From a virus, in IMG/VR virus record IMGVR_UViG_3300028299_000364, positions 1 to 26,048 of that record: a stretch of DNA of 26,048 nt. The stretch is one strand, 5' to 3'. The notes below the pieces were generated by a model. It ran no database searches and was not told the DNA's origin. It worked only from the letters and a program-made list of their open reading frames with translations. A program made the position numbers and the translations under genes. Below, piece by piece: positions 1,201 to 18,216 of this stretch. Every line of letters starts with the position of its first letter. Position 1 is the stretch's first letter.

Positions 1201-4011
1201 TTAAATATACACCTTTTTTATTTCATTTACAACATTTTTTACAGAAGGATGACACTCAAACATTGACTTGTTTTCTAAACAATTAGAAATAACAGGCGTT
1301 CCTTGAATAGTACCATGTTCAGCTAAACCATATTTCATACAAGAACCACAAAAAAGATTACATGTACCTGGAACATAAGAATACTTATATTTTTGATTTC
1401 CATGTCTATATGGCGCTCTAAATTTTGGATCTATGGAACTTCCCAATTGTATTATATATGTATCTGTTGTTCCTGCCAAATGTAAAATACCAGAATCCAT
1501 AGTTACTACTACACTAGCTTTATTTAAAATATGCCAAGTTTCTGATATTGATAATTTATTACTATAATCCATTCCATCATAAATATTTAAAGCAAAAACA
1601 GGCTTGGCAACCATTGAATTCGAAGAAGCAAGAAATTCAGCTGTATCTTTTCCCACAACTACTACAGATATATTATTTGCATAAAGTTGATCTACAAGTT
1701 TTTGCCAATTTTCTTTAGACCAGGTCCTGCTTTCCCATGTTTCCGCAGGATGAACTACTACATATTTATTTGGGAGAGATATATTAGATTCTTTATCTGG
1801 AATATATATGCATGTTCTGTCTTCTGGTAATAAGTCAAAGCCAAGAAAAGCCGCATGATATTGTCGTATATCAATTAGATTATGTTGTAAAACAACACCT
1901 GGAAAAAATGGTTTATCAATATTAATAAATGAAGTATGTACTAATTTTGGTGAATATTTATTTAATTTTACATTTAATGTAGTGTGATCATATCCATGTA
2001 AATTAAAAAGTTTACTTACATCTGGATTATTTTTAAATAATTCCGGAACATAGGTAAAAACATCAAGTGGTTTTTCATATATACTTGCTAATTTACGTAA
2101 AGTAGCTGTTGAACTTAGTGTGTCCCCTAAAGAAGGACAACCTATTACAAAAACAGGATTATTTAATATAACAATTTTTTCTATCTGAAAAGGTTCCCAA
2201 GCAAAAATATTTGATTCATATTTTCCTTTTATAACTTGTACTCTTTGATATGCTTTCTTTAAAGAGGCAACAAAACTACTAAAGTCACTATCTGAATGAA
2301 CGGTGTGGTGAAACTCCAAAGCAATCTTTTTAATTTTAGGCGCTAAGATATATATATCTTGTAAAATATCAAGTTCAGACCCCTCTGTATCAATCTTTAA
2401 AAAATCAACATGTACTATTGCGTTTTCTATTAAAAAATCCTTCAAAGAAAGTACATTTACCTGTTCAGTCCTTCCCGTGTGTGTGGGATGCCCATCTCTT
2501 GGTTTTAGAATTGTATGACCACCGCTCACACTATCTATATACAAGTCTGTAGTCATAGATTTGTTTGAAAGACCAATGTTAAAATGTTTTGCATCTTTTA
2601 CATTATTTTGTAGAGCTTTAAAATTTTCTTTGTTTGGTTCTATGCTATATACAATAGATGCTCCAGCTTTAAAAGCAAATAAACTAAAAAGTCCAATATT
2701 TGCCCCTACATCTATGACAGTGTCTCCTTTTTGTACTTTACAATCTTCAAAAGAATACTCTTCTTTTGTCCAAACTTCATTCCACAGAAGGTTAAACTCA
2801 TTTTTATCTTGTATACTGTGTTGTAAATCTAATTTTGGTAAATTTTTAAAAGCATCAATGACCTGTTGTGCTTCTATAGTCTTAGAACACTCAAATTGTC
2901 TTGAAGTGTCCTTGTGTCTTGGACACCAATTCCAATCGCCCTTATCAAACATAATATCTTTGTCATTAAAACACCCTTTGCATTTTTCAGAATTATCAAT
3001 ACGGATGCAATTATTTTGAAATTCGTACCAAGATTCTGTAAAGCCGGAAATCATAATTGTTTTTTGTCCCATAGCCCATGCTAACCATGACAATCCGGAA
3101 CTAATACCTATAAGACACTCTGCATGTTTTATATAAGGAAGAAGTTGTTCAAGCGTCAAATCTTTTACATTTATAGTATCTAGTAATGCTTTATTACCCA
3201 TATAGCCATTAGGTTCACGTGACAAATTTACTACTTTATAACCAGAAGTATTTAGATAGTCAATAACCTCCTGCCAACCGGTTGAGTTATTCCAGTATTT
3301 TGCTTGTGCTGTCGAATGGGGGGCTATACAAACATATTTTTCTTCCATTGGCTTGCCAGCAGTAATTTCGTTTATTTGAGCCTGTTTTGATTCTAGAGGA
3401 AGTCCTAAAATAACGGCAGCTAAATGTTGTAGTGGAATTGTTCTGGAATCAACAGGTGCTTTATTTAAATCATAATATACACCAATATTATAATTAGCTG
3501 TAAGATTTTCAATAGTAGTTCCAGGTGAAACAAACTCAATTTGCGGATAACATTTATTAAAAAGATTGTTATGAAATGTACTAACAATAAGAAGACATTG
3601 ATGCTTCTTTTGAAAATCTTCTAGATATGGCATCCACGCAATTGTATCTCCCAGGGCACTACTTCCAAACTGAATAAAAACTTTTTTATTTTTTAAATTC
3701 AGATCACAACTAACCACTAAGGCATTATTATATAACACATCTATACGCCAATTTATAAAATATTCCCTTGAAGCTTTCGACCAGTGACCGGGTTTTATTA
3801 TACTCTCATATATTACTGCCTGCGTATCTTTATTAATAAACCTGGTTGTATATTCTTTTTGTGAAGGACCTACAATTGAAACTTTTGGTCCACCTATAAA
3901 TGAAAATTCAAAACGATCTTCTGTAGAAACTTGAGGTAATGGCAACGCCATTACTGCAGATATATCAGTTGTTTTATATGCCTCTATGAGTTCTTTTTGC
4001 ATTTGTGACAT
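1201..4011 (-). CDS. Three-domain glycosylation enzyme: O-heptosyltransferase-like GT, FkbM methyltransferase, GT9
   Basis: A 936-residue fusion. Residues about 1-395 resemble the Aah/TibC autotransporter O-heptosyltransferases: they have the nucleotide-sugar entry FGSSALGDTIAW (115-126) and a four-cysteine iron-finger pattern at C344, C347, C363 and C375. Residues about 428-605 are an FkbM-type SAM methyltransferase, with VIDVGANIG (432-440) and the signature FLKIDTEGSELD (537-548). Residues about 617-936 are a second GT9-like domain with IGCPSLGDT, HPAETW and MDSGILHLAGTTD, plus another cysteine cluster near the C-terminus. It likely transfers heptose-like sugars to Ser/Thr of a protein and methylates a sugar. 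The start overlaps the preceding gene's stop as TAATG. All 17 Trp codons are TGG, unlike most of the window, which hints at recent acquisition. Confidence 0.85.
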   Translation of the reverse strand: MSQMQKELIEAYKTTDISAVMALPLPQVSTEDRFEFSFIGGPKVSIVGPSQKEYTTRFINKDTQAVIYESIIKPGHWSKASREYFINWRIDVLYNNALVVSCDLNLKNKKVFIQFGSSALGDTIAWMPYLEDFQKKHQCLLIVSTFHNNLFNKCYPQIEFVSPGTTIENLTANYNIGVYYDLNKAPVDSRTIPLQHLAAVILGLPLESKQAQINEITAGKPMEEKYVCIAPHSTAQAKYWNNSTGWQEVIDYLNTSGYKVVNLSREPNGYMGNKALLDTINVKDLTLEQLLPYIKHAECLIGISSGLSWLAWAMGQKTIMISGFTESWYEFQNNCIRIDNSEKCKGCFNDKDIMFDKGDWNWCPRHKDTSRQFECSKTIEAQQVIDAFKNLPKLDLQHSIQDKNEFNLLWNEVWTKEEYSFEDCKVQKGDTVIDVGANIGLFSLFAFKAGASIVYSIEPNKENFKALQNNVKDAKHFNIGLSNKSMTTDLYIDSVSGGHTILKPRDGHPTHTGRTEQVNVLSLKDFLIENAIVHVDFLKIDTEGSELDILQDIYILAPKIKKIALEFHHTVHSDSDFSSFVASLKKAYQRVQVIKGKYESNIFAWEPFQIEKIVILNNPVFVIGCPSLGDTLSSTATLRKLASIYEKPLDVFTYVPELFKNNPDVSKLFNLHGYDHTTLNVKLNKYSPKLVHTSFINIDKPFFPGVVLQHNLIDIRQYHAAFLGFDLLPEDRTCIYIPDKESNISLPNKYVVVHPAETWESRTWSKENWQKLVDQLYANNISVVVVGKDTAEFLASSNSMVAKPVFALNIYDGMDYSNKLSISETWHILNKASVVVTMDSGILHLAGTTDTYIIQLGSSIDPKFRAPYRHGNQKYKYSYVPGTCNLFCGSCMKYGLAEHGTIQGTPVISNCLENKSMFECHPSVKNVVNEIKKVYI

Positions 4012-4967
4012 TATGAGTTCATGTTGATTAATTCTTTTACCTGCGTGGCATGCTGCGCAGGATCTTTATGAAAAAACTTTATTAACTGATTGTTTGAATA
4101 AGCTCCGTTGTATATTGGTAAGTCGTTCATTAATACGGGCAATTCCCAGGAAAGCGCTTCCCGTACAACGAGTGGGTTAGTTTCTAGTACAGAAGGGAAT
4201 ATCAATGCGTCGCAGGCCTGATAAAACAATTCCATATCGGCTCTTTCTCCCCATATAACGCAGTTATCAGGCTTTACAGCCATCAAGGGTCCCCAATAAT
4301 TTTCGAAATTTACAGCTTGATTACCAACAAAATTAAAATAAATGCCATTAGGAAGTTGTTGTGCTATTTTGAAAACTTGTCCTTGATTTTTATCTTTAGT
4401 GAATAAGCCTACCGTAATAACTTGTGCAGAATCGACCTTCATTCCTAGTTTTTTTCTGGCTTCTTCTTTAGTATATTGTCGTTCTTGTTTATCAATAGGG
4501 TACTCTACAACGTCATAAGGAATTTTTAAATCCCTGTATCTACTAGCCTGTCCTTCGCTGACAAAAATGAATTTATCCGGGAAAAATTGTTTTGTGCTTA
4601 CATTATAAGTTGAGTTATGGCAAGTCTCGAGAAGCTTGTATTGACGATCTGTGCGATACAGCCACTCAAAGGGTTTACGATCAAAGTCATACCAAAAACA
4701 TTCTGGATGTTCTTCGAGGTGAATAATATTGGGATTAATATCTTTTACGATTTGTATAAGTTCATTTTTATCTGTTCCTAACGTGAATAACCTATCGCCA
4801 AGAAGTTCGGATATTTTATCACGTTGAACAGTATACTTGTCGCTTATCTTAGCAAATTCTATAACATAAACAACAAAAACGTTTTTTAAAGCTTCTATCT
4901 TCTTTAGAAGATATTGTGGTTGGCCACCTGTTGATAAATGTGGCGCAACAAATAAAAGTTTTTGCAT
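4011..4967 (-). CDS. GT4-type glycosyltransferase
   Basis: 318 residues with the layout of a GT-B retaining glycosyltransferase: an N-terminal nucleotide-fold opening (LLFVAPHLSTGGQPQYL), a linker, and a C-terminal sugar-nucleotide domain with VGLFTKDKNQ and a late acidic motif region near VVREALSWELPVL. The family transfers sugars from NDP-sugars, usually in the cytoplasm. No signal peptide or membrane segment is seen. It is translationally coupled to the three-domain glycosylation enzyme through TAATG, so the two probably act on the same glycan. All five Trp codons are TGG. The ribosome-binding site is weak. Donor and acceptor cannot be read from the sequence. Confidence 0.8.
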   Translation of the reverse strand: MQKLLFVAPHLSTGGQPQYLLKKIEALKNVFVVYVIEFAKISDKYTVQRDKISELLGDRLFTLGTDKNELIQIVKDINPNIIHLEEHPECFWYDFDRKPFEWLYRTDRQYKLLETCHNSTYNVSTKQFFPDKFIFVSEGQASRYRDLKIPYDVVEYPIDKQERQYTKEEARKKLGMKVDSAQVITVGLFTKDKNQGQVFKIAQQLPNGIYFNFVGNQAVNFENYWGPLMAVKPDNCVIWGERADMELFYQACDALIFPSVLETNPLVVREALSWELPVLMNDLPIYNGAYSNNQLIKFFHKDPAQHATQVKELINMNS

Positions 4968-4979
4968 GTGTTTATTTGA

Positions 4980-5336
4980 TTACACAGCTGTTAAGGGGCC
5001 TCATAGTTCTATTTCGTCCCCATCAATTAGGTCATATCCTAAGTTACTATTAAAAGTAACTACTATATTTACTCCTAAATTTATAATGGAAGTAATACAA
5101 TTTTTAAATACAGCTAATCTATTAATTCCAATAGCTCAGTCATTTAAATCAGTAGCAACCCCATTTATATGAAAAGTTGAATGAATATTATAATTTTCAA
5201 TGGTAACTGTGTTTATAGTTGTAAAAACACCGTTTGCTTTTACCATATTCTCAACAAAATTTATTAACTCACTGGTATCAATTGATGTAGGATTTTGCCA
5301 ATAATTGTCTAATAAATGTTGTAATTTATGTGACAT
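4980..5336 (-). CDS. Small structural protein paralogous to the C-terminus of the preceding gene
   Basis: 118 residues that align end to end with the last ~120 residues of the gene ending at 5336: both share LLDxYW, TIENYNI, INR and the C-terminal LIDGDEIELWGP. Two Trp codons here are TGA (5136-5138 and in the final LWGP), and in both cases the paralogue has Trp encoded by TGG at the same aligned position. The chosen ATG (5334-5336) overlaps the upstream stop as TAATG; an earlier in-frame ATG at 5360 would lie inside the upstream gene. It is probably a virion or tail-completion component, inferred from its paralogue and position. Confidence 0.75.
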
Positions 5337-6541
5337 TATACAACAACCATTGGTCCCCACAATTCAATTTCATCTCCGTCAATTAAATCATATAGTAAAT
5401 TAGCATTAAAAGTAATTATGATATTAGAGCCATTATTTACGATTGAAGTAATAGTTTGTTTTGTTGCCGCCATTCTGTTAATAAAAACAGACCACATACT
5501 TAAATTTATAGCTGTTCCGTAAGTATGAAAAATGTCTACAATATTATAATTTTCAATGGTAGCTGTTGTGGCCGATGTAAAACCACCAATTACACGTTTT
5601 AAACTGCTAACCCACTGAACAGCTAAAGCTGTTTCTCCTTGCGAAGATTCATACCAATAACTATCTAATAGTTGCTTTATTACAGCATACACAGTTGTTT
5701 GTTCTGCTGCTTGTACCACAGGTAAACCTAGTATTGTTAGGGCAATATCTAAAGTTTCTTTTTCCAAATCATAAATTTGATCATCTTGAGAAATTAAAGA
5801 ACATTGTGCATTATGTTCAATAACATATCCAAGCTTTTCTGTTTTACGAATTTGCTTTACTATCCACCTTTGATTTTTATCATCAACAATTATATCTCGT
5901 GTCCGTATGGGTGGAAAATTTAACATTGTAAATAAAGCATCATGCGGCATCCATTCTCCAAACATAGTAATTTGATTATATTTTGGAGCTGGGTTTAACA
6001 TACCTTTTAAATATATTGCCTTAAAATAACCGCTTACCCATCCTGTTCCATAACAAATTTGACATGTATCATTTATAATACGTTGTAAAGTAGGATCCCA
6101 GCATTCTGTGCAATGTGTTCCATAAGTACGTTTTTTAATTACAAAAAAATCACGACCTGAATATTGTGCTAATGCAATTCCTTTACGTCTCACAATCTCT
6201 AAAGCTGCCTTATCAGTGGTAGTTGCTTTTCTAAAAGCTGGTGTAACAGGTTGAATTGACTCTTCTAAGGAAGAAAGATTTATAAATTTTAATTTATAAT
6301 ACCATGTTCGTAAAGGATCAAACAATCCAGAAATTCCATAATCATCATAATCATATGTTGTGGCAGGTATTCCTAATTCTACTAAATCAAAACCTAGTAA
6401 TCCGGAAACACCTGGATTTTCAGAACGATATATATTTAAGGAATAGCCAGATAAAGCTTCGACAGTGTCTTCTAAATCTCAAGTTAATGTAAGTTTATTT
6501 ACATCATAGGAAGTTACATCAAGATTTTTTAAAGTTAACAT
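5336..6541 (-). CDS. Virion structural protein with Fn3-like N-terminus and zinc ribbon
   Basis: 401 residues. The first ~90 look like a fibronectin type III or Ig-like beta-sandwich (LTWDLEDTVEAL, SLNIYRSEN, WYYKLKF), with the first of these Trp residues encoded by TGA. A zinc-ribbon pattern follows, C144-x2-C147-x12-C160-x2-C163, with the CYGTGW context seen in neck or tail-completion proteins of large phages. The last ~120 residues form a domain duplicated as the next gene. It starts at TAATG with the preceding gene and is the second gene after a promoter and terminator pair downstream of the capsid gene. A head-tail joining or tail-completion role is inferred from order; no enzyme motif is seen. 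Confidence 0.7.
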
Positions 6542-7020
6542 TAATAAATAAGTTCTTCAGTATCAGCTAAAAAGGAATATTCAGATGGAACAGATCCATA
6601 TGCTGAATCAATATTAGCGCTTACTTTCATGGCTTGCACAGCCAAGCGATATTTAGTAATTAGAACATTAAAATAGTTTATATAACGTCCATAGGTATCG
6701 TAATCTTGAATTGTAACACCACCAGTATCATTATAAGTCAGTGTATTTCTTGATGATAATATTCCCTTACCTGTTAAAACTTGTAAAATAGCTCCCAACT
6801 TTAAAATAGACCAATGTGGAAAATCAGCAATAGTATAAAAAGTTATAACTGGTGGTGCTATATTTACTTCATCAAGTGCATCTTCTATACATTCATACAA
6901 AAAAAGATCAGTACTTTCACGATCTTGTAAAAGTTTATTTAAAGTTGCATCATCACCTAAAAAACGACGAAGACGATCTACTTTAGTTTGAGATTCTACA
7001 GGTACAAACGGGTCTGCCAT
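6541..7020 (-). CDS. Probable head-tail connector or neck protein
   Basis: 159 residues, soluble and mostly helical, beginning MADPFVPVESQTKVDRLRRF. Its place directly after the capsid gene, the helical N-terminal half and the later segment rich in Tyr and Asn fit adaptor/neck proteins, but I do not recognise the exact family. It is the first gene of a new transcription unit: a sigma70-type promoter lies about 30-60 bases upstream, and AAAGGA sits eight bases before the ATG. One Trp, TGG. Confidence 0.55.
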   Translation of the reverse strand: MADPFVPVESQTKVDRLRRFLGDDATLNKLLQDRESTDLFLYECIEDALDEVNIAPPVITFYTIADFPHWSILKLGAILQVLTGKGILSSRNTLTYNDTGGVTIQDYDTYGRYINYFNVLITKYRLAVQAMKVSANIDSAYGSVPSEYSFLADTEELIY

Positions 7021-7052
7021 AATTTTTTTCCTTTAAATTGATTCTATATCTA

Positions 7053-7081
7053 AATATAAGCTTTTATCTAAACCTAGTCAA
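7053..7081 (-). promoter_or_regulatory. Sigma70-type promoter
   Basis: On the minus strand TTGACT (7076-7081), a 17-base spacer and TATATT (7053-7058), one and one mismatch from the consensus hexamers. It lies between the terminator after the capsid gene and the start at 7020, giving a leader of about 25 bases that contains the ribosome-binding site. It should drive the neck, tail-completion, glycosylation and fibre genes. Confidence 0.75.
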
Positions 7082-7091
7082 GTATTTAAAC

Positions 7092-7121
7092 AAAAAAGGG
7101 ACTTCATTAAAGTCCCTTTTT
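7092..7121 (-). terminator. Rho-independent terminator after the capsid gene
   Basis: A perfect 12-base-pair inverted repeat (7093-7104 with 7110-7121) around a five-base loop. The stem has a GGGACTT core flanked by A and T runs, giving a U-rich tail. It begins 18 bases past the capsid stop. Because the flanking runs are symmetric it could act in both directions, but no plus-strand gene was found. It splits head genes from tail genes. Confidence 0.9.
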
Positions 7122-7138
7122 CATAGTTTGTACTAAAT

Positions 7139-8032
7139 CTAACCTAAAGTCATCTTAGCACAGGATTTGGTATTACCAATTCCCATACCTACACTTTCAT
7201 AAGCAGCAAACGATATAATATTCTTTTTCTTTTCAATCCAGAATTTTACATCATTTAATACCAAGAATTGGCCCATAAATTCTTGAGCTGTAAAGCCATA
7301 GATTTTATTTTGTAGTAGGCTTACTTTATTAGATACAACTAATCTACGTCCAAACAAAGTTGAATAAGAATAACCATTTACATGGGTTTCTGATCCTACT
7401 GCGTCACCAACCGTTGTTGCGTCATATAAAAATAAACGGTTATACATTGTTGTGTCCATTAAAATAATTTCAGTACGTAACTCATTGCCGTCTAATACAT
7501 CAAACAGTGTTTTAAAAGCTGTTTTTGGTATTTGACCTGAACTGTAACTAGCGGTTTGAGCGCTACTTTCAGTTGTAATTGCTGCGTCTACTTGAGCTAA
7601 GAACGATGTATCTTCGATTTTTTGAATATCAAGAACTGAGTTCTTTTCGATAACCTCTGTTAAAGGCATTTCGTAAGCTAAAAGTTCTTCTTCTGTTTTT
7701 TGAAAATCCTCTGAACTGATCATATAAAAAGGAATCTCAAAACGAGGACCTTCAATGTAGTTCCAATCGGGTTCACCACGGAAGTTTACTGTCATAGCTT
7801 TTGAATCAGGTTCAATATCAACAATCTTTACAAGACCATCATGATTAACTGAACGTGTTAAATCGGCTTTTGTTACATACTGGGGTTGAATAATTTTACG
7901 CGCAAAAGATACTTCACGTAACTTTTGACGAATAAAAGCTGATCCCTCTTGTGCTACTTTTTCTAATCCATCCGGAGAATCTAACTTCTGGATGAATAGC
8001 TCATTAACAGTACTTGCTGATAAGTTTTCCAT
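7139..8032 (-). CDS. Probable major capsid protein (HK97-like fold)
   Basis: 297 residues. The start MENLSAS has AGGAGA nine bases upstream; longer in-frame versions run into the upstream gene. The sequence follows capsid proteins of large myophage-like viruses: a helical N-terminal region, REVSFARKIIQPQYV, a beta-rich middle with YIEGPRFEIPFYMISSE, the central helix region around LDIQKIEDTSFLAQVDAAI, and a C-terminal domain with LFGRRLVVSNKV and SFAAYESVGMGI. Its position after protease, scaffold-like and decoration genes, and just before a strong terminator, supports the call. No TGA codons; both Trp are TGG, which fits a highly expressed gene. I infer the HK97 fold from these patterns and not from a structure comparison. 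Confidence 0.8.
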   Translation of the reverse strand: MENLSASTVNELFIQKLDSPDGLEKVAQEGSAFIRQKLREVSFARKIIQPQYVTKADLTRSVNHDGLVKIVDIEPDSKAMTVNFRGEPDWNYIEGPRFEIPFYMISSEDFQKTEEELLAYEMPLTEVIEKNSVLDIQKIEDTSFLAQVDAAITTESSAQTASYSSGQIPKTAFKTLFDVLDGNELRTEIILMDTTMYNRLFLYDATTVGDAVGSETHVNGYSYSTLFGRRLVVSNKVSLLQNKIYGFTAQEFMGQFLVLNDVKFWIEKKKNIISFAAYESVGMGIGNTKSCAKMTLG

Positions 8033-8046
8033 AATTATTTCTCCTA

Positions 8047-8484
8047 TTATATCGTAATGTATTCGATTACGGTATGGCTGGCATTTAGATGAGTAATAGA
8101 GTGACTTGCTTTTGTACAATATGCAGCGATTATTCCAGCGCCTGCAGTTGTACTTAACATACCATCAGTGCCAACATATAATGCGGCTCCAACGGCTGGG
8201 GTACCTGTAAATTGATCTGTCAATGCACGGAATTTTCCGTAAACTACAGTTAATTTACCAGTACCTGTTGTAGATCTTGTGTCTGGTGTAAAGCCTGCTG
8301 TACCGTCACGATTGGATTCGTTCCACACACAACCTAAAGCAAAAGCGCCGGCAGAACCAACGTAATTTAAAGTGGTTGTATTTGGACCAACCCAAGTTCC
8401 GGTAAATCCTGACGCCAACAAGCCAGCTGCGGCTGTTACGTCAAAACGATGCACCATATTCAAGTTTGTCAACATTCTAAGCAT
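8047..8484 (-). CDS. Head decoration or stabilisation protein
   Basis: 145 residues, rich in Gly, Ala, Thr and short beta segments (for example TGKLTVVYGKFRALTD and VGAALYVGTDGM), starting just upstream of the capsid gene. A good GGAGG site precedes the ATG. Size, composition and adjacency to the capsid gene are typical of phage decoration proteins that bind the outer capsid surface as trimers. There is no membrane segment, and both Trp are TGG. The assignment rests on context and composition. Confidence 0.6.
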   Translation of the reverse strand: MLRMLTNLNMVHRFDVTAAAGLLASGFTGTWVGPNTTTLNYVGSAGAFALGCVWNESNRDGTAGFTPDTRSTTGTGKLTVVYGKFRALTDQFTGTPAVGAALYVGTDGMLSTTAGAGIIAAYCTKASHSITHLNASHTVIEYITI

Positions 8485-8514
8485 TATTACTTTCCTCCAG
8501 TAATATTATTAGTC

Positions 8515-8868
8515 TTAATCCTCCAGAAGCCCTTGTATAAAGCGCTCTTCTGGAGATAGTGATATAGATGAGATATTCTTAGCAACTTTACCCAAAAAAA
8601 ATCCCTGTCTGGTTTCTGTCATGGTAGCTGCTTTTTCAATTACATCTAATTGTTCTGAGGGCTGCTTACAAAATTCTGTAATAGTATCCTCAAATTTTTC
8701 AAGTGTTACATGACCAATTTTTAAAAAACGAGTTGCCAAACGTTGAGCTCTTTTATAATGCTCAAGCTGCATACCTTGTTCTTGCTGTTTTAATTCACTT
8801 TCTTGCAATTCTTGCGCCAAAGCTCTAATAGTTGAAGCAGCTCGTTTTTCTAAACTTTGTTCACTCAT
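8515..8868 (-). CDS. Small helical scaffold-like protein
   Basis: 117 residues, helical with coiled-coil character (EKRAASTIRALAQELQESEL) and no Trp. The C-terminus LSPEERFIQGLLED resembles the end of the 182-residue acidic protein two genes upstream (LQPDQRIVLGLYNRFFG). It lies between protease and capsid genes, where scaffolding and core proteins are normally encoded. The ribosome-binding site is weak, so coupling to the preceding gene is likely. The family is not recognised. Confidence 0.6.
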   Translation of the reverse strand: MSEQSLEKRAASTIRALAQELQESELKQQEQGMQLEHYKRAQRLATRFLKIGHVTLEKFEDTITEFCKQPSEQLDVIEKAATMTETRQGFFLGKVAKNISSISLSPEERFIQGLLED

Positions 8869-8887
8869 TGTTGTCTAAAAATTACTT

Positions 8888-9220
8888 TTATTCTTTTATT
8901 TCTTCTGTTGCTGCTAATTCTGCTTTAAAAGCCTTAGCCATAATAATACCTAATTGATGCTGTTCTGCAATTTTTTCTTGTTTTTCTTCAAGTGCAGCAT
9001 CTTTTTCTATTAAGTATGTAGCTAGTTCTGTTACATCATCTTCAGAATAATCATTGCCATATTCTTCAGCTAGCATATTATCTGCCGTAGTAGCGTATTT
9101 ATTAAGAACCTCTAAACGATCTTGAGTTAGTTGTTCTTCTGCATTTTTTTCAATAGTTTCAGAAACTTGTTCTTGATCAGCTTGAAGCATTGCATCATAT
9201 ATTTCTAATAAATTAGACAT
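8888..9220 (-). CDS. Small acidic scaffold-like protein
   Basis: 110 residues, strongly acidic and helical, with no Trp and no membrane segment. A segment GIIMAKAFKAELAA matches YMARGFMAELNE in the preceding 182-residue protein, so the two share a module. A GGAGG site inside the end of the preceding gene precedes the ATG (9218-9220). Position and composition suggest a scaffold or prohead core component removed by the maturation protease; this is inference. Confidence 0.6.
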   Translation of the reverse strand: MSNLLEIYDAMLQADQEQVSETIEKNAEEQLTQDRLEVLNKYATTADNMLAEEYGNDYSEDDVTELATYLIEKDAALEEKQEKIAEQHQLGIIMAKAFKAELAATEEIKE

Positions 9221-9223
9221 AAT

Positions 9224-9772
9224 TTAATTTTCCTCCGTTCCAAAAAAACGATTATATAGACCTAAAACAATCCGCTGATCCGGTTGTAAAGATGCCAACT
9301 TTTCTGCTTCAGATTCTTCTACTGCAGGTTCTTCTGCATCAGCAGCTACCTTTTCTACTGTTTTAGTAGTTATTTCATTTAATTCTGCCATAAATCCCCG
9401 AGCCATATAACGACCTTGTTTTTCTAAAAGAGCAATTGTTTCTTTATCTTCTTCAGAAAGTTCGGCTTCTTTTTCTGCTTCAGGTTCTTCTGCTGCAGAT
9501 TCTTCTGCTACAGGTTCTTCTGCTACAGGTTCTTCTGCTACAGGTTCTTCTGCTACAGGTTCTTCTGCTACAGGTTCTTCTGCTACAGGTTCTTCTGCTA
9601 CAGGTTCTTCTGCGTCAGCTACTTTAATTTCTTCTTTTACTTCAGCCGTTTCAACAACTTCTGTTTTAAGTTCGTCTACTTTGCTGTCGTCTAGAAGATT
9701 TTCCGCAAAAACTTGTTCCGCTTTTTTTACTGTCTCAAGTTCCTGTAGAATTTTATCGATGTTTACACCCAT
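9224..9772 (-). CDS. Acidic repeat protein, probable scaffold or prohead core protein
   Basis: 182 residues, very acidic. The N-terminal ~45 residues are helical. Residues about 52-96 hold tandem AEEPV pentapeptides encoded by a perfect 15-bp repeat. The C-terminal half has YMARGFMAELNE and ends with LQPDQRIVLGLYNRFFG, both echoed in the two following genes. TGGAGG lies upstream of the ATG. It follows the protease gene directly, the usual place for a scaffold. The flexible Pro/Glu repeat may act as a spacer or protease-sensitive linker. Confidence 0.65.
   Translation of the reverse strand: MGVNIDKILQELETVKKAEQVFAENLLDDSKVDELKTEVVETAEVKEEIKVADAEEPVAEEPVAEEPVAEEPVAEEPVAEEPVAEEPVAEESAAEEPEAEKEAELSEEDKETIALLEKQGRYMARGFMAELNEITTKTVEKVAADAEEPAVEESEAEKLASLQPDQRIVLGLYNRFFGTEEN
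9486..9620. repeat. 15-bp tandem repeat encoding AEEPV
   Basis: Seven identical copies of a 15-bp unit (plus strand TCTTCTGCTACAGGT) at 9501-9605, with degenerate copies on both sides. Identity at silent positions indicates very recent expansion, in contrast to the degenerate fibre repeat. The unit is a multiple of three, so copy-number changes keep the frame. Confidence 0.95.
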
Positions 9773-9788
9773 TTGTGTAATACCTCCA

Positions 9789-12700
9789 TTAGTTTATGAT
9801 TAAATCCTTATAAATAACATTTAATGTGTCTTCGTCTAATCGATTCAGAACACTAGCAAATTTTAGTCAATTTGAATTTAATGTTTTAAATTTATTTATT
9901 TGCTTTGATATTGTATTTAGCCCAGTTACACCCAAAATAGACGCTCCTAAAGCTACAAGCGCTGGATGCTTTCTCAAAAAATTTTCACTTGATGAGATAG
10001 GAATTCCTCGCTGTGCTTTTTGTTCAGGAAAAGAAGCAGCATAATATGATCCTGGAACAGTTATAAGCATTCCACCAATAACGTGTCCAGCATTTTCAAT
10101 CATACCTGCTTTCTTATCAAACGAATCCAAATCATGCACATGTTTTTGAGCCAATATTGAAACACCGGCCGCAGAACCAAGCATAGCTGTAAATATCCAA
10201 GGATGCCTTGCTAAAAACTTTTTAAATTCACTAGTACTAACATTATTAAATGTTTTTATATATCCGTAATATAAGCTACCCAACACTCCTAGAGGAACTA
10301 TTGGACTCTTAACTGAATTAAACACAGGATCTTCTGACTGGCCAAAAAAAACTTTACCTATAAGACTTCGTTCTTTTTTATTTCTATCAGGAAATACCTG
10401 ATTTAATTCTTCCGGAGATTGTGCTTGCTCTATAAAGTCCGCCTGGCTTATTTTATATAAACCACGCGCAATAATGTTAGGCTTTGTTAAAGCCATTCCT
10501 GGCAAGTCTTCAATTAACAACCCGGCAATTTTTTCATTAAAACGATCAAGAGATATATCTTCTGGAACAATGGCTTTTAGATTTGGATTTACATCAAAAC
10601 AAATATTAGCTTTTTCAAGTTCTTCTGCTCCGAGTGCTTTTCCCATACTATATAAAGCTAGTTTTTGAAAGTCTTCTCGTACAGGTACAATTCGTAATCC
10701 AATAAATGTTGAAAGTATTTCACTTAGCGGATACTCCGAAAGTTTTTCAATAGTTTCTTTGGATAGACGTTTTTGGGATGATCGTATTAAATTTTTTGGA
10801 TCATCTGCAATAACTTCTATTTTACCATCTATTTTCTTTTTTATCTCAGCTTGAGATTCAAGTTCTGCTGTTTTAGCAATACTTTGTGCTCAAGTTAAGG
10901 GCTCATCGATCATTTCATTTGCTGATTTATCAAAAGACGAAGAAGTTTTATTAGAAAGTTTCTTTATAAAACTAGCCGTCTTTTCGGCAGGGATTGTTAC
11001 TACACTAATGTCAAAAAACTTTGGTTGATTGTTTATAGCATAAACCTTTTTACCGTTTGGCATTACCTTATTCATGTTGTTTTTTAAATGTTCGCAATAA
11101 TTCGCGACCTTTGTTGCTTCGTTTCCACATATGCTGCAAGTATCTTTTGGAACTCTGCAATTATGAACTGCATACTGCTCTACTACATAAGAATTGTCTT
11201 TTTCTACTTCAAAGTTATAAACGGGCCCTTCATAATTTTCTTCTGCAATACTTTCGATACCTAAAAGATAAAAATCTTCATATTCAAAAGGACCCCCTTT
11301 ACCGCCCGATCCCATAGAATCGATATTTTGAATCTTATTTGCATATTTATATAATTCGTTGTTTGCTGTTTTTCTAAATCTTAAAATCCATTCTATGGTT
11401 TCCTCGTTTGAAAATCCTTTTCCGGCTCCGTGAATATTTCTTCCAATAGTGACGTTTAGCCCAATTGAAAAACCTAACCATTGAATTTGTTCTAAAAGTT
11501 GTTTATTGCACGAACTTATATAAATTTGATTTTTATGAAAAAAGCCATCTCCTGAAATATATGCACCTAAAAAAGTAAGTTTAGCTTCTTTACTTCAATT
11601 AAAAATATCTTTATGCAAAAACTTTTTATGGCTATACTTTCCACAATATTTTAACACTTCTTTTTTTAAATCTTTTGAAAAAATCCGAATTACTAAAGCT
11701 TCTTTTGAATGAGACCGTGTTCCAAATTTTGCTTCCGGTAATTGTAATATCTTTAAAACGCTGTCTATCTCTTGTACTATTTGATCTTTTTCATTAACAC
11801 TAAATTCTACCCCACTATCATTAATGTGTGTATACCCTTCAGCCAAATACCAACCTAAAAGTTTAGCCTTTGCGACAGATACATCAATTCCATCAACATT
11901 CTTTGGCTTTGGTATAAATAAATGATCGTGCACCGAAAGATCTTCTGAATTTTTTCAAACAGCGTCGTCAACTGACAATTGTTTTCGTCTTATTACCCGA
12001 TTTTTTTCATCTTTGTCAAAAAATTTATCAGGTTCAATAATCAATCATGGGTGTTCTTTAGTAGCTGTAATTGTTTCTCTATACTTACCAACAGGGTTTA
12101 TTGTGTATATCTTTCCAGAATAATCCCTTGGATGTAATTCAGTTACTTTGTGTATTTCTCCCATGTGTGTTAATACTTCATCCCCAACTTGAATATTTTC
12201 GATCGGTTTCTTGGAAAAATCACTAAGTATAATATTAGTACCAGCTTGGACACATCCCATACTCACCGCGGGCAGTTCGCCTTTATCCAATCTTTCTATA
12301 ACAGGTTTAGCTTTGCTCTTGTCTAATTCCAAAACTAATTCAACTCTTTTCATTTTATCATTATAATGTGCAAATTTTACTTGTCCTAATGACAATTTCG
12401 GATCTTTATTTACATGATGTGTGTAAACATGGCCGAGAGCTTCAAAAGTTTTATGATAATCTTTTAATGCTTTTTCAGGAAAATAATCGCCATTTCGGTT
12501 TGAATTATGTCCAATAAAATCAACAACATACGAGTTATCATCTTCAACTTCTAGATTATAAATGGATGTTTTTTCTATTTCTTCAAACATAACTGATTTT
12601 ACTTTCGCTAAAATATATCCGGTTGGTAAAATAAAAAAACCACCATTTTTACTAACTCGTTCTGTTAGATTTACACTTTTTAATCGTAATGTTTTTTCGA

Positions 12701-13868
12701 GCAACTCGGGCGTGTAATAACTACCAATACTTCCTTCATAAATATTATGATCTTCAGTTCCAAAACAATTATTACTGAATTTATTACAGCCGAGAGATGT
12801 TGTAGAAACAACTCCAATTTTAGCTAATAAACGTTGTAACGAAAAAGCTAAGTTTCTTGATACAGTGCTAAATTTAATTGTGTTTTCATACCTACTGTTG
12901 TCTGCGTCCGTTGTTAGATGCCCGTCGCCATCTAAATAAGCCGCAATAAAAGTTTTAATCCATTCATCGGTTTGAGCAAAAATTTCAGGATGTATAAATT
13001 TTCTTTTTGAGTGGTGCCCTAAATATTTTTCTAAAATATAAGCCATCTCTTTTCAACCAACACTTACCCTTAAAGCTTTATCTGATGTTTGAGACTCAGA
13101 GATAAACAACGAATGCTCAGCTTTTTGAACAATTTCATTTAATTTATCGATCATCTTCTGATCTGATTTACCAAATACAAAGACAATGCCGGCCCAATCA
13201 TCTTTTTGATTTATCCTGTCATATCTCTTTGTTAAACAGCCTTCTGCTAAATAATAACCAAAAAGATGTGCATAATCAAGCGGCAACTGTTCGGGCAACT
13301 TTTCAAACTTTGGATCAATGGGAGAATAAACATAATCTCCGGGACGTATTTCTTTTGCATTAATTCATTCGGGCTTTAGTTGCGATAATTCATTTAAAAA
13401 TTCTTCTCGAGATATTTTTTGTTTGTAATACCTTTTTTGAATAGGCACAAAATTTTCTTTTTTTAAGAGTAAAAAAGGATGATTTTCTGTAGATGTCTGC
13501 TCTTCAGCAAAATTTTGAATTTTAATTTTAGTTTGTAGCCCGTCATAATCTTTAACAAAACATGAAATAACTTTTTTAAAAGAATTTGTATGTGTTCAAA
13601 CTTGATCATCTTTTTTTATTTCTTCTATAGGGCTATAACCCATATTAGTTAAGATAGGTTGACCCTTAAAAAAACATCCAAAAAACTCTCCAGCCGCTAA
13701 TGCATTTACAAGTGCATACTCTTTTTCAGGTTTGCCATCTAAACCTTCTATATATTCTTGAATTTCCGGTGCATATTCAGCACGTTTTTCCATAGACGTT
13801 CCGGAAAGCACAGAAAAAACTTCAGTGTTGTTATCACCGTATATATAATTTAGAGTTTTTTCGATCAT
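9789..13868 (-). CDS. Prohead maturation protease with two inteins and a hydrophobic C-terminal domain
   Basis: A 1359-residue precursor that would give about 603 residues after removal of two inteins (residues 65-455 and 539-903). The joined extein has NRNGDYFPEKAL, YTHHVNKDP (candidate catalytic His 484/485) and VSMG (candidate catalytic Ser 536), then a CSICGN...YC.HL zinc-like segment and FFDISVVTIPAEKTA. This pattern is that of prohead serine proteases of large phages, which cleave scaffold and capsid during maturation. The C-terminal ~290 residues have four hydrophobic Gly/Ala-rich segments (about 1188-1205, 1223-1240, 1262-1277, 1302-1317), unusual for a protease. Eight TGA codons must be read as Trp; with them the frame is open throughout. 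The start overlaps the preceding stop as TAATG. The protease call is confident; the tail's role is unknown. Confidence 0.85.
11160..12254 (-). mobile_element. Intein 2 of the protease, LAGLIDADG type
   Basis: 365 residues, inserted directly after the active-site VSMG. It starts with Cys in the splicing-block context CVQAGTNIILSD, has TATKEHPW as the block B His region, and ends VVEQYAVHN before a +1 Cys. Two LAGLIDADG-like helices are present, LLGWYLAEG (670-678) and FLGAYISGDG (766-775). The acidic residues needed for a homing endonuclease are therefore at least partly kept (E and D), so the element may still be mobile. Three Trp are TGA and three TGG, so it has adapted to the recoded genome. 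Confidence 0.9.
12504..13676 (-). mobile_element. Intein 1 of the protease, LAGLIDADG type
   Basis: 391 residues, inserted before the conserved SNRNGDYFP. It begins CFFKGQPILTNMGYSPIEEI (block A), has the block B sequence STENHPFLLL, and ends DNSYVVDFIGHN followed by +1 Ser. The LAGLIDADG-like helices are LFGYYLAEG (202-210) and FIAAYLDGDG (307-316). Terminal His-Asn and first Cys suggest it is splicing-competent. Three TGA and two TGG Trp codons. It is not a close copy of intein 2: the C-terminal block is alike (DNSYVV) but the endonuclease parts differ. Confidence 0.9.
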
Positions 13869-15444: not shown

Positions 15445-18216
15445 TTAGGCAGAACCATATGCTAACTGGGCTGACAAAATTGCATATAAGGTCGCATGAA
15501 AAAAATCATCAGGACCTACATTTATATACTTGCTTTTTCCTAATTCCTCATTATATTCTGTTTGAATATTTAAAATATCCTCTAAGAATGTTTGAGAGTC
15601 TTCTCATTTTGGAAATACTACCTTTCCACTTTTTATTAAACTAAATACGTCATTCATTGTTTGGTTTCTACTAAGAGTATACGCAGGCATTTGCTTGTTT
15701 CATCTTAATTTTTCTTTTTGAGCAGCATTGTGTTGAAATGCAATTACTACTTTTTTTCCTATTCGTTTCTGTATTTCGCTATTAGGTGCTTCACCCATAC
15801 CATAGTCAGCTGCCAAAATCTCACAATTTCATATATTCATTAATCTTGGAACTTCATCATGAATAAAACCATAATCTGCTTCTTTTCCTATAAATCTTTT
15901 AGCATATACCACATGATATTTATTATCACCACGTAACTGAACAACACTAATAATAGTATATGACTCAGTTGAATTTACAGGACCATAATCAATTCCCATA
16001 ATAGACTGATAAGACAAATCAAGTTCTGAAGGAGTTTCCTGTATATTTTTATTTTGGCTGCAAGCGGCCATAACTTCTGTTCTAGTAATTGGCGCCACGC
16101 CATGATCATACTCAAGAGCAAGAACTTCATTAAAAAATGCAGCCTTACTATAAGTTTTCATTTTACCTATAACATCTTTTTCTCAACTAACCCATGGAGC
16201 TTTTGCAAAATGTAATAAACAAACTCTATAACCTTCTAAAGTAGGTTTATCTTTTATATTTGAGTATGTTGAAATCCATTCACCTTTTATAATATTAGTA
16301 TCTAATTCCTTTCCGCAATTAGCATTATTACAAATTAAAAAATGTGGGCCAATATTTGACTCATCTAAAAGATTTCAATGATTGCAATGCGGACATTTTA
16401 ATAGATATTCGTTTTGTGTAGATGCATACCAAAGATCTGCTAAAGTTCCTTTTGTTCGTTTTGGAGTTCCTGAATATAATGTACGTTTATACAATGATCG
16501 TGACATTGTTTCATGAATAACTGGAATAACGCTTGCTTTTAAATCTTGGATTTCATCCAAAAGATTAAAATCCGCCGACATGCCTCGTAAATGATCAGCT
16601 GATAACAACGCATATCTTAAATACATGCGACTATAATTAAGAAGTTGTTTCATGAATACATTTTGTACCATTGTGCTATTTAAATAATGTTCTTTAATCA
16701 AAGGAGAAGTTTCAAGTACAGGTGCTACACGATCCCTAGAAAACACTTTTGCTTGATCCACCGTAGGTGCCACATATAAAGTTCGAAAGTGTGGAATGAG
16801 CGCACTATTTGAAACCATTATATTCGCCAAGGTTGTACTTTTTGAAGTATTCTTGGTCAAAATACCATCAATTTGAAATGTGTGAATGCCCTCAATTTCT
16901 AAAGCCGTAGTAGCTTTTTTTCCCAAAAGCACTATTGAAGTGACTTTATCAAAATGAAAATCCGCATCATAAAGTTTTTGAAGCTGTGTAAACGTACAAT
17001 CAGTTTTTAAATATCTTTTTAGTTTTTCATAAGAAACATTATTATTAGGACTATAGAATCTTTTATCTTTTTTTGGCCTATCTTTTTTTAATTGTTCATA
17101 TACAAATTTTTTATCAATAACTAATCGGTTATGCGTTTTATGTAAATTTTGTATTAACTGCGGCGGTGCTTTTTTTGTCAAAATTTGATTATAAAAACTT
17201 TTTATTGCATCCTGTCCTTCTAAAGTTAATTTATAAACTTTTTTGTTTGTATCTTTATAAACTTTTGGTATAGATTCTGATATTATTGAATGTATGCCTA
17301 ACTTTAAAAGAAGTATTTGTATGCCCTTTATTAGCTTTTCAGATATGAGGCCTATACCAACATAATGATCACCTGAAAATTTAGTCGATCAATATCCATC
17401 AATGTCTCACCAAATTCTTAAATAATCTTTTAACTGTTTTTCAGAAAGATTATATACTAGATCAGGATGAAATTTTGTTTGTGAGTTAGACGGATATAGT
17501 CCTAAACTTTTAAATCATTCTTTTAGAGGAGACGATTTACCAATACCTATTCCATTTATTCTATATTGACCGGGATACATATCTTGTGGCAAGGCATGTA
17601 ATGAAATGTCTGGATGAAAATCTTTTAAAGCTTTTCTAAATTCTTGGACTATCGCAGCATCACAATTAGTAAAAGTAAATGAGCGGGTTGTCATTTCACC
17701 TTCAGCGAGCATATATGCTAAAACTTTATACTGATGGTCTGGAACAGTTGCTTCTTGTCGTAGTGCACACCTATTATTACGTGAAAGTGCTATAAAATCA
17801 TTAATTTTTAGATCTTTTGCATTTTTAAAGCCAAACGCAGTTCAAATGGGGTGATTTCCAGTTACTCTTAAGGAGCGCCCTGTTCTGGTTTTTATATGAA
17901 AAACGTCTTCTTGTCCGTTATCCCACTTATTTTTTACAACAGAAATAACGTTTTTAAATGTGTCTTGATTAAAGCCAATTATTTCTTCGCCTGGCTTTAT
18001 ATCACTTGCTAAAACTGCCTGACCATTAGCTAAATTTAAAATTTGTATATTATCAACACATTGACGACTAAACTTTAAAACAATATCACTGGCAGGATCA
18101 TTATATATTGCACGCATATGCGGATAAGCATCTAATGACAGCGGATGCCCATCTATATGTAAAAAACTCTCCGCAAAATCACTTCTACGAAGTTCTAATA
18201 TTTTTTTAGAACCCAT
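15445..18216 (-). CDS. Terminase large subunit with intein
   Basis: A 923-residue precursor; about 519 residues after intein removal, the usual size. It is the ATP-driven motor and nuclease that packages DNA through the portal. The intein interrupts the Walker A region: SRQ before it and TSKSTTLAN after it. Walker B is NLLDEIQD (acidic 554). A zinc-ribbon-like CPHCNHW...CNNANCG follows, as in GpA-type terminases. The RNase H-like nuclease has aspartates in MGIDYG (D743), AADYGMGE (D804) and DDFFHATLYA (D903/904). Nine TGA codons, five of them in the extein, are read as Trp; WVSWEKDV and FPKWED fall at family Trp positions. It starts at TAATG overlapping the bS21 gene and stops with TAA. Confidence 0.95.
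16849..18060 (-). mobile_element. Terminase intein, LAGLIDADG type
   Basis: 404 residues (53-456). It starts with Cys (CVDNIQILNLANGQAVLASD), has the block B-type VTGNHPI, and ends TFQIDGILTKN before +1 Thr. The penultimate residue is Lys in place of the usual His, which may slow splicing. Endonuclease helices: VLAYMLAEG (165-173) and YLRIWWDIDG (265-274). Insertion in the Walker A loop is a known hot spot for terminase inteins and would block ATP binding until splicing. Four TGA and two TGG Trp codons. Confidence 0.9.

Follow-up and report, generated by a model that had tools for sequence, protein, structure and literature searches.

Tandem genes with in-frame TGA codons

The window analysed here is an entire IMG/VR record of 26,048 bases. 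Two adjacent genes on its minus strand encode proteins of 401 and 118 aa, and the ATG of the 118-aa gene overlaps the TAA of the upstream 401-aa gene. The features of this locus are:

4980-5336, minus strand: tandem domain copy of 118 aa with two in-frame TGA codons, identified by BLASTP
5001-5003, minus strand: TGA codon 112 of the 118-aa protein (IEL-W-GP), aligned with TGG395 (5357-5359) of the neighbour
5136-5138, minus strand: TGA codon 67 of the 118-aa protein, aligned with TGG350 (5492-5494) of the neighbour
5336-6541, minus strand: 401-aa virion (neck-region) protein, with core-only orthologues of 261 aa in L003-L011
5339-5680, minus strand: C-terminal domain of the 401-aa protein (residues 288-401), duplicated in the 118-aa protein; every Trp is TGG
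6479-6481, minus strand: TGA codon 21 of the 401-aa protein (LTLT-W-DLE), at a site where all nine orthologues compared have Trp

The 401-aa protein has a core of ~260 aa with an FN3-like N-terminus and a CxxC...CxxC motif, followed by the C-terminal domain. As a preliminary description of the sequence had proposed, the 118-aa protein is a copy of the C-terminal end of its neighbour, with 57 of 114 residues identical (50%) in an ungapped BLASTP alignment (E = 2e-37). The pairwise alignment also confirmed that both TGA codons of the copy, at positions 67 and 112, fall on TGG codons of the neighbour. Given that the neighbour has four Trp in the 114 columns, the chance of both TGA codons landing on Trp is 6/6441, or ~0.001. 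A third common Trp (position 13 of the copy, 296 of the neighbour) is TGG in both copies. The sites of W67 and W112 are invariant Trp in 11 homologous domains from several phages. These two sites had been presented as an internal proof that TGA encodes Trp rather than Gly; the assignment holds far beyond them, and the sites themselves are strong evidence but incomplete as a proof on their own.

The description also saw here a TGG/TGA exchange after a domain duplication; a special link between the two was not borne out, as every lineage has its swaps at Trp sites of its own. The 401-aa and 118-aa pair is also present in two sisters, L001 (part of the 210-kb record G001) and L002. The copy in L001 has TGA at position 13 and TGG at 67 and 112, that in L002 has TGA at 112 only, and the domain in the 401-aa neighbour is TGG throughout in the window, L001 and L002. 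Codon 21 of the 401-aa protein, TGA in the window, is TGG in L001, L002 and L007 and TGA in L003 and L004. On these alignments, the TGG/TGA swaps are lineage-specific synonymous drift, separate from the duplication. Dating the duplication by synonymous distance, which had been put forward as a check, was attempted, but dS was saturated (~1.2 between the copies in the window, 1.0-2.4 between orthologues). The dN was 0.11-0.32 between a copy and its orthologue and 0.41-0.50 between a copy and its partner. A copy thus resembles its orthologue more than it does its partner, which places the duplication before the divergence of the three phages.

Phages with core proteins 48-56% identical have the 261-aa version without the domain. 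The domain forms the C-terminus of longer fibre-like proteins in L045, L048 and L056 and is a separate 131-aa gene in L067. This distribution suggests that the duplicated domain is probably a mobile virion-surface module. An AlphaFold model of the 118-aa protein was confident and mostly beta (pLDDT 89), and that of the 401-aa protein was poor. A structure search of the PDB with the 118-aa model gave no significant match, with weak matches only to pilins, spore appendages and phage tail or tailspike proteins. In our view, both tandem proteins are probably domains of the virion surface, with TGG and TGA exchanged in them by synonymous drift.

TGA encodes tryptophan throughout the window

The 31 ORFs of the window contain 48 in-frame TGA and 67 TGG codons, and none of them terminates in TGA. 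Genes relevant to the distribution of these codons are:

1201-4967, minus strand: two glycosyltransferase genes with 22 TGG and no TGA, inside an otherwise TGA-rich window
7139-8038, minus strand: major capsid protein with no TGA and two TGG, used as the query for finding relatives
9789-13868, minus strand: maturation-protease-like gene with two inteins and eight in-frame TGA
15445-18216, minus strand: terminase large subunit with an intein and nine in-frame TGA; those that could be aligned correspond to Trp in most relatives

The residues of relatives at the TGA codons of the window were W encoded by TGG (117), W encoded by TGA (45), L (34), F (22), K (10) and G (1). TGA is also a sense codon in lineages using code 25 (PMC10746230), where it encodes glycine, as in Gracilibacteria, Absconditabacteria and their phages. 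The single Gly against 117 Trp (TGG) rejects code 25 for the window and leaves the glycine reading with a negligible probability. From the aligned codons, we conclude that TGA encodes Trp throughout the window.

The remainder of the window outside the glycosyltransferase genes has 45 TGG and 48 TGA codons (Fisher p = 1.4e-6), and the capsid block (6541-9772) is likewise without TGA. The TGA-free glycosyltransferase genes could reflect either recent acquisition or selection for TGG. The three inteins of the window, two in the protease-like gene and one in the terminase, carry LAGLIDADG domains and have in-frame TGA codons as well. At 2-799 on the minus strand lies a gene for a collagen-like tail protein with GTSGTSG repeats, where the complementary strand is open for 175-197 codons in several frames.

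Relatives use a mixed code

The distribution of TGA over whole genomes was seen in three relatives of ~205-210 kb, with early and late genes assigned by gene content. In G001, sense TGA occurs only in the plus-strand blocks with the terminase, capsid, baseplate and fused RNA polymerase genes, and there is almost none in the minus-strand blocks with primase, ribonucleotide reductase and ligase. In the large minus-strand block (93-153 kb) genes end in TGA, and most of these stops overlap the start of the following gene as ATGA. When ORFs ending in TGA under code 11 were inspected, at least 40 further open codons followed in 34 of 40 late cases and in 2 of 20 cases from the early minus-strand block (p = 2e-8). 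G021 and G018 showed the same late/early split. In these relatives, recoded codons are thus confined to virion and late genes and the early genes follow the standard code. TGA is absent as a stop in the window, yet it ends early genes of G001, G021 and G018, so that a rule of TGA never being a terminator fails for the phage group. The code of this group is mixed and its recoding partial. In two other relatives, G005 and G023, TGA is an ordinary stop. On a quick capsid-protein tree, the use of TGA had to be gained or lost at least five times, a rough count given that many of the records are fragments.

A low GC content and the use of TGA for Trp would also fit a phage that borrows the code of a Mycoplasma-like code-4 host, in which case a phage-encoded device would be needless; most cultured code-4 phages do infect Mycoplasma or Spiroplasma (PMC11210395). 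A code-4 host is difficult to reconcile with early genes that end in TGA with ATGA overlaps, with close capsid-protein relatives that use TGA as a stop, or with the dedicated UCA tRNA carried by recoded relatives (see below). By capsid homology the lineage is related to Salmonella phage Arash and Vibrio phage D69, and its capsid and terminase relatives among cultured phages infect hosts with the standard code. Collectively, these results make a code-4 host very improbable.

A 2019-aa single protein of G001 (83406-89465; L016) joins Rpb2- and Rpb1-type RNA polymerase domains and has three in-frame TGA codons. No TrpRS was found in 16 records, and an RF-1-family release factor match was found in only one record, G032.

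A UCA tRNA in recoded relatives

No tRNA gene was found in the 26-kb window. G001 has 25 tRNAs on the early strand, including a tRNA-Trp(CCA). Its late strand has a single UCA tRNA, labelled tRNA-SeC by ARAGORN. The UCA tRNA lies directly upstream of one and the same late-strand gene in G001, G021, G018 and L136, and no tRNA is present at the corresponding place in G005. A covariance model built from 30 UCA tRNAs of the two-arm type described below gave 67-77 bits in G001, G018, G020, G021 and G043, some of whose sequences are in the model. The next-best matches anywhere were at most 53 bits and coincided with other tRNA genes, and the model found no UCA two-arm tRNA in the non-recoded G005, G023, G025 and G009.

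The UCA tRNA of G018 (L112:16160-16258) has a non-standard T loop, GGCGGTA, and was missed by ARAGORN, illustrating how suppressors escape detection. Class I CUA (amber) tRNAs are present in G021 and G018 (L103:5393-5469 and, on the minus strand, L114:15365-15439). No TAG recoding was seen in the relatives of the window although these two phages carry them, an oddity also reported for zeta crAss-like phages (PMC12386605).

The UCA tRNA has a second anticodon arm

The UCA tRNA has two anticodon-like arms. Arm A holds the UCA anticodon, and arm B is a hairpin in the long variable region with the loop N-U-C-C-A-A-N. Its loops, such as GTCCAAA, CTCCAAA and TTCCAAC, resemble the anticodon loop of tRNA-Trp(CCA). 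The pattern used to scan viral sequences specified the UCA loop, the T loop and the CCA end and set no condition on the variable region; the 34 distinct viral UCA tRNAs comprise those among the scan matches listed together with the syntenic cases. TCCA was present in the arm B region of 34/34 viral UCA tRNAs among the matches listed, compared to 1/77 bacterial tRNA-Sec-type controls found with the same pattern. A hairpin with an exact 7-nt loop and a central CCA was formed in 26/34 (among the matches listed), against a mean of 0.4 and a maximum of 4 in shuffled sequences; the other hairpins (8/34 among the matches listed) had a loop other than 7 nt under a strict parse. In the arm B stem, 110 of 120 cells were standard pairs, whereas 64 were expected and none of 5000 reshuffles exceeded 83, and compensatory changes were seen in all five helices of the two-arm tRNA. 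The predicted minimum-energy fold breaks arm B in one of five tRNAs.

Arm B is separated from the T stem by 4 nt in 23/29 cases, the normal variable-loop spacing of an anticodon arm, and from arm A by 3-6 nt in 29/30. In BLAST searches against annotated phages, arm B, the T arm and the 3' acceptor strand matched the 3' halves of tRNA-Trp genes; the fifth query, L210, matched tRNA-Gln instead. Five two-arm tRNAs were searched, and none was covered to 80% by an annotated record of a cultured phage. This spacing and the BLAST matches to tRNA-Trp genes suggest that arm B is, very probably, by descent the anticodon arm of tRNA-Trp, and arm A the addition. A recent duplication of arm B as the source of arm A found no support, as the likeness of the two arms within one tRNA was no higher than across tRNAs. 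Pairing of arm B with the D loop was likewise put aside on inspection by eye, since D loops vary and that of G018 has no UGG, while the CCA is constant.

Bacterial TrpRS recognises its tRNA by the bases of the anticodon, by G73 at the discriminator position and by the first pairs of the acceptor stem (PMC9976931). G73 is present in 30/30 two-arm tRNAs, and the first pair is A1-U72 in 22/30, G-U in 6 and G-C in 2. The two-arm tRNAs thus combine Trp identity elements (G73 and the first acceptor pair) with a UCA anticodon. The Trp-like acceptor end and arm B also speak against glycine.

G73 and a long variable region are shared with Ser and Sec tRNAs, and these features, along with the ARAGORN label, would allow the UCA tRNA to be a class II tRNA charged by SerRS or a tRNA-Sec. 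The loop of arm B would then have another role, and TGA would be read as Trp by other means, such as a near-cognate host tRNA-Trp. This is unlikely, though it is the most credible of the alternatives. The TGA sites correspond to Trp, not to Ser or Sec, the spacing of arm B is that of tRNA-Trp and unlike that of a class II arm, and the BLAST matches were to tRNA-Trp. Moreover, the variable arms of bacterial tRNA-Sec lack the CCA loop (1/77), and where arm A has CUA instead of UCA, it is TAG rather than TGA that is recoded, still to Trp (see below). The two-arm tRNA has a 7-bp acceptor stem and a 5-bp T stem, so that the 13-bp stack of tRNA-Sec is not formed.

Two different ordinary tRNAs would result if arm A or arm B were spliced out on maturation, for instance as a very small intron. 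When arm A is removed in silico, what remains looks like a normal tRNA-Trp(CCA), and tRNA introns occur in recoded jumbo phages (PMC13037316). Both arms are, however, conserved and covary, and an additional, separate tRNA-Trp(CCA) is present in the phages examined. We know of no bacterial system that excises a hairpin of ~20 nt, and we regard excision as highly unlikely.

A CUA anticodon in arm A coincides with recoding of TAG

If arm A determines the codon and arm B the amino acid, a different arm A is expected to move recoding to another codon with Trp kept. A scan for CUA in arm A followed by CCA further on gave one true case, L517 in G045:

G045:10262-10356 (L518): CUA/CCA two-arm tRNA, 8 nt after an ordinary tRNA-Trp(CCA), in a 146-kb record

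Readthrough in G045 was 41/56 for TAG and 9/40 for TGA, indicating that TAG is the sense codon. The relatives with a UCA arm were the reverse, with TAG 7/33 and TGA 43/52 in G028 and TAG 3/40 and TGA 42/50 in G047. At sites with both flanks conserved, the TAG codons of G045 aligned with W (15), TGA (8, Trp in those relatives), Y (7) and Q (0), compared to three UCA-arm relatives in which TAG aligned with W once in 87 sites. Since Y occurs in the controls too, Y and the other partners in G045 are probably antisense-frame noise. Exchange of UCA for CUA in arm A is therefore accompanied by a shift of recoding from TGA to TAG, and Trp stays.

In G030 (8971-9145), a two-arm tRNA lies 4 nt from a second, lower-scoring match of the same model. 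This arrangement and that of G045 hint at a possible origin of two-arm tRNAs beside ordinary tRNA-Trp genes. A Trp-like UCA tRNA with a short variable loop is present in L467, so two arms are not the sole route.

Discussion

We put at roughly three in four the probability that the window is a fragment of a jumbo phage in which TGA encodes Trp in the late (virion) genes and is decoded via a two-arm tRNA, with early genes of its relatives ending in TGA. The phage would carry the same UCA tRNA outside this fragment. As the tested records have no TrpRS of their own, a host enzyme that expects CCA would have to charge the tRNA, and arm B supplies CCA. Host TrpRS would recognise arm B together with the Trp-like acceptor end (G73, mostly A1-U72), and arm A would read UGA on the ribosome. 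Late transcription of the tRNA gene would switch TGA from stop to Trp, and its late gene position would delay TGA reading until the late genes are transcribed. That the two-arm tRNA is charged with Trp we infer from the codon alignments and the CUA swap.

More broadly, and with a little less confidence, we think it likely that these tRNAs form a widespread class of phage suppressors, in which host TrpRS reads arm B (CCA) and the ribosome reads arm A (UCA, with CUA in one phage). Phages could then convert a stop to Trp without a synthetase of their own, and could switch to another stop codon through arm A alone.

Stop-codon-recoded phages are already known, and code-4 phages with late-gene recoding were reportedly described by Borges et al. 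in 2022. Like the present group, the crAss-like code-4 phages read TGA as Trp mostly in late genes, have opal suppressor tRNAs in part of their genomes and have relatives that keep the standard code; they differ in that here the lineage is one of jumbo phages and the UCA tRNA has a second (CCA) anticodon arm. In crAss-like phages, TGA recoding to Trp is confined mostly to late genes and suppressor tRNAs often go undetected (Yutin et al. 2021, PMC7886860); a TCA suppressor was found in 11 of 73 catalogued table-4 phages (PMC11210395), and Trp-type suppressors linked to UAG were predicted before (PMC10879173). Opal suppressor tRNA-Trp(UCA) likewise has a UCA anticodon, G73, mostly A1-U72 and Trp at the decoded codons. 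The tRNA described here differs from it by an additional CCA arm of 5 bp with a 7-nt loop in the variable region, a length of ~96 rather than ~74 nt and its classification as tRNA-SeC by ARAGORN. With tRNA-Sec it shares the UCA anticodon in the loop CUUCAAA, a long variable region and G73. In contrast to tRNA-Sec, its acceptor and T stems of 7 and 5 bp add up to 12 rather than 13 bp, its extra arm has a CCA loop, and the TGA sites are many and ordinary, with Trp at the codons. RNA mimics of anticodons, such as the thrS operator and tRNA-like structures, also use an anticodon-like hairpin for synthetase recognition (PMC9976931), whereas here the mimic would sit inside a working tRNA beside a different decoding arm. 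No description of a second anticodon arm was found in the open papers searched, and an earlier report may exist.

The anticodon of tRNA-Trp is both the decoding part and one of the main identity elements for TrpRS. Because of this double role, a change to stop-codon reading should weaken charging. If our reading is true, a second arm that keeps the CCA identity would solve this loss, and the rule of a single anticodon for both tasks would be broken. A second arm may also be the reason that suppressor tRNAs in recoded phages often go undetected or are mislabelled, here as tRNA-SeC. Finally, it would offer a design principle for tRNAs in which the amino acid and the codon are set separately.
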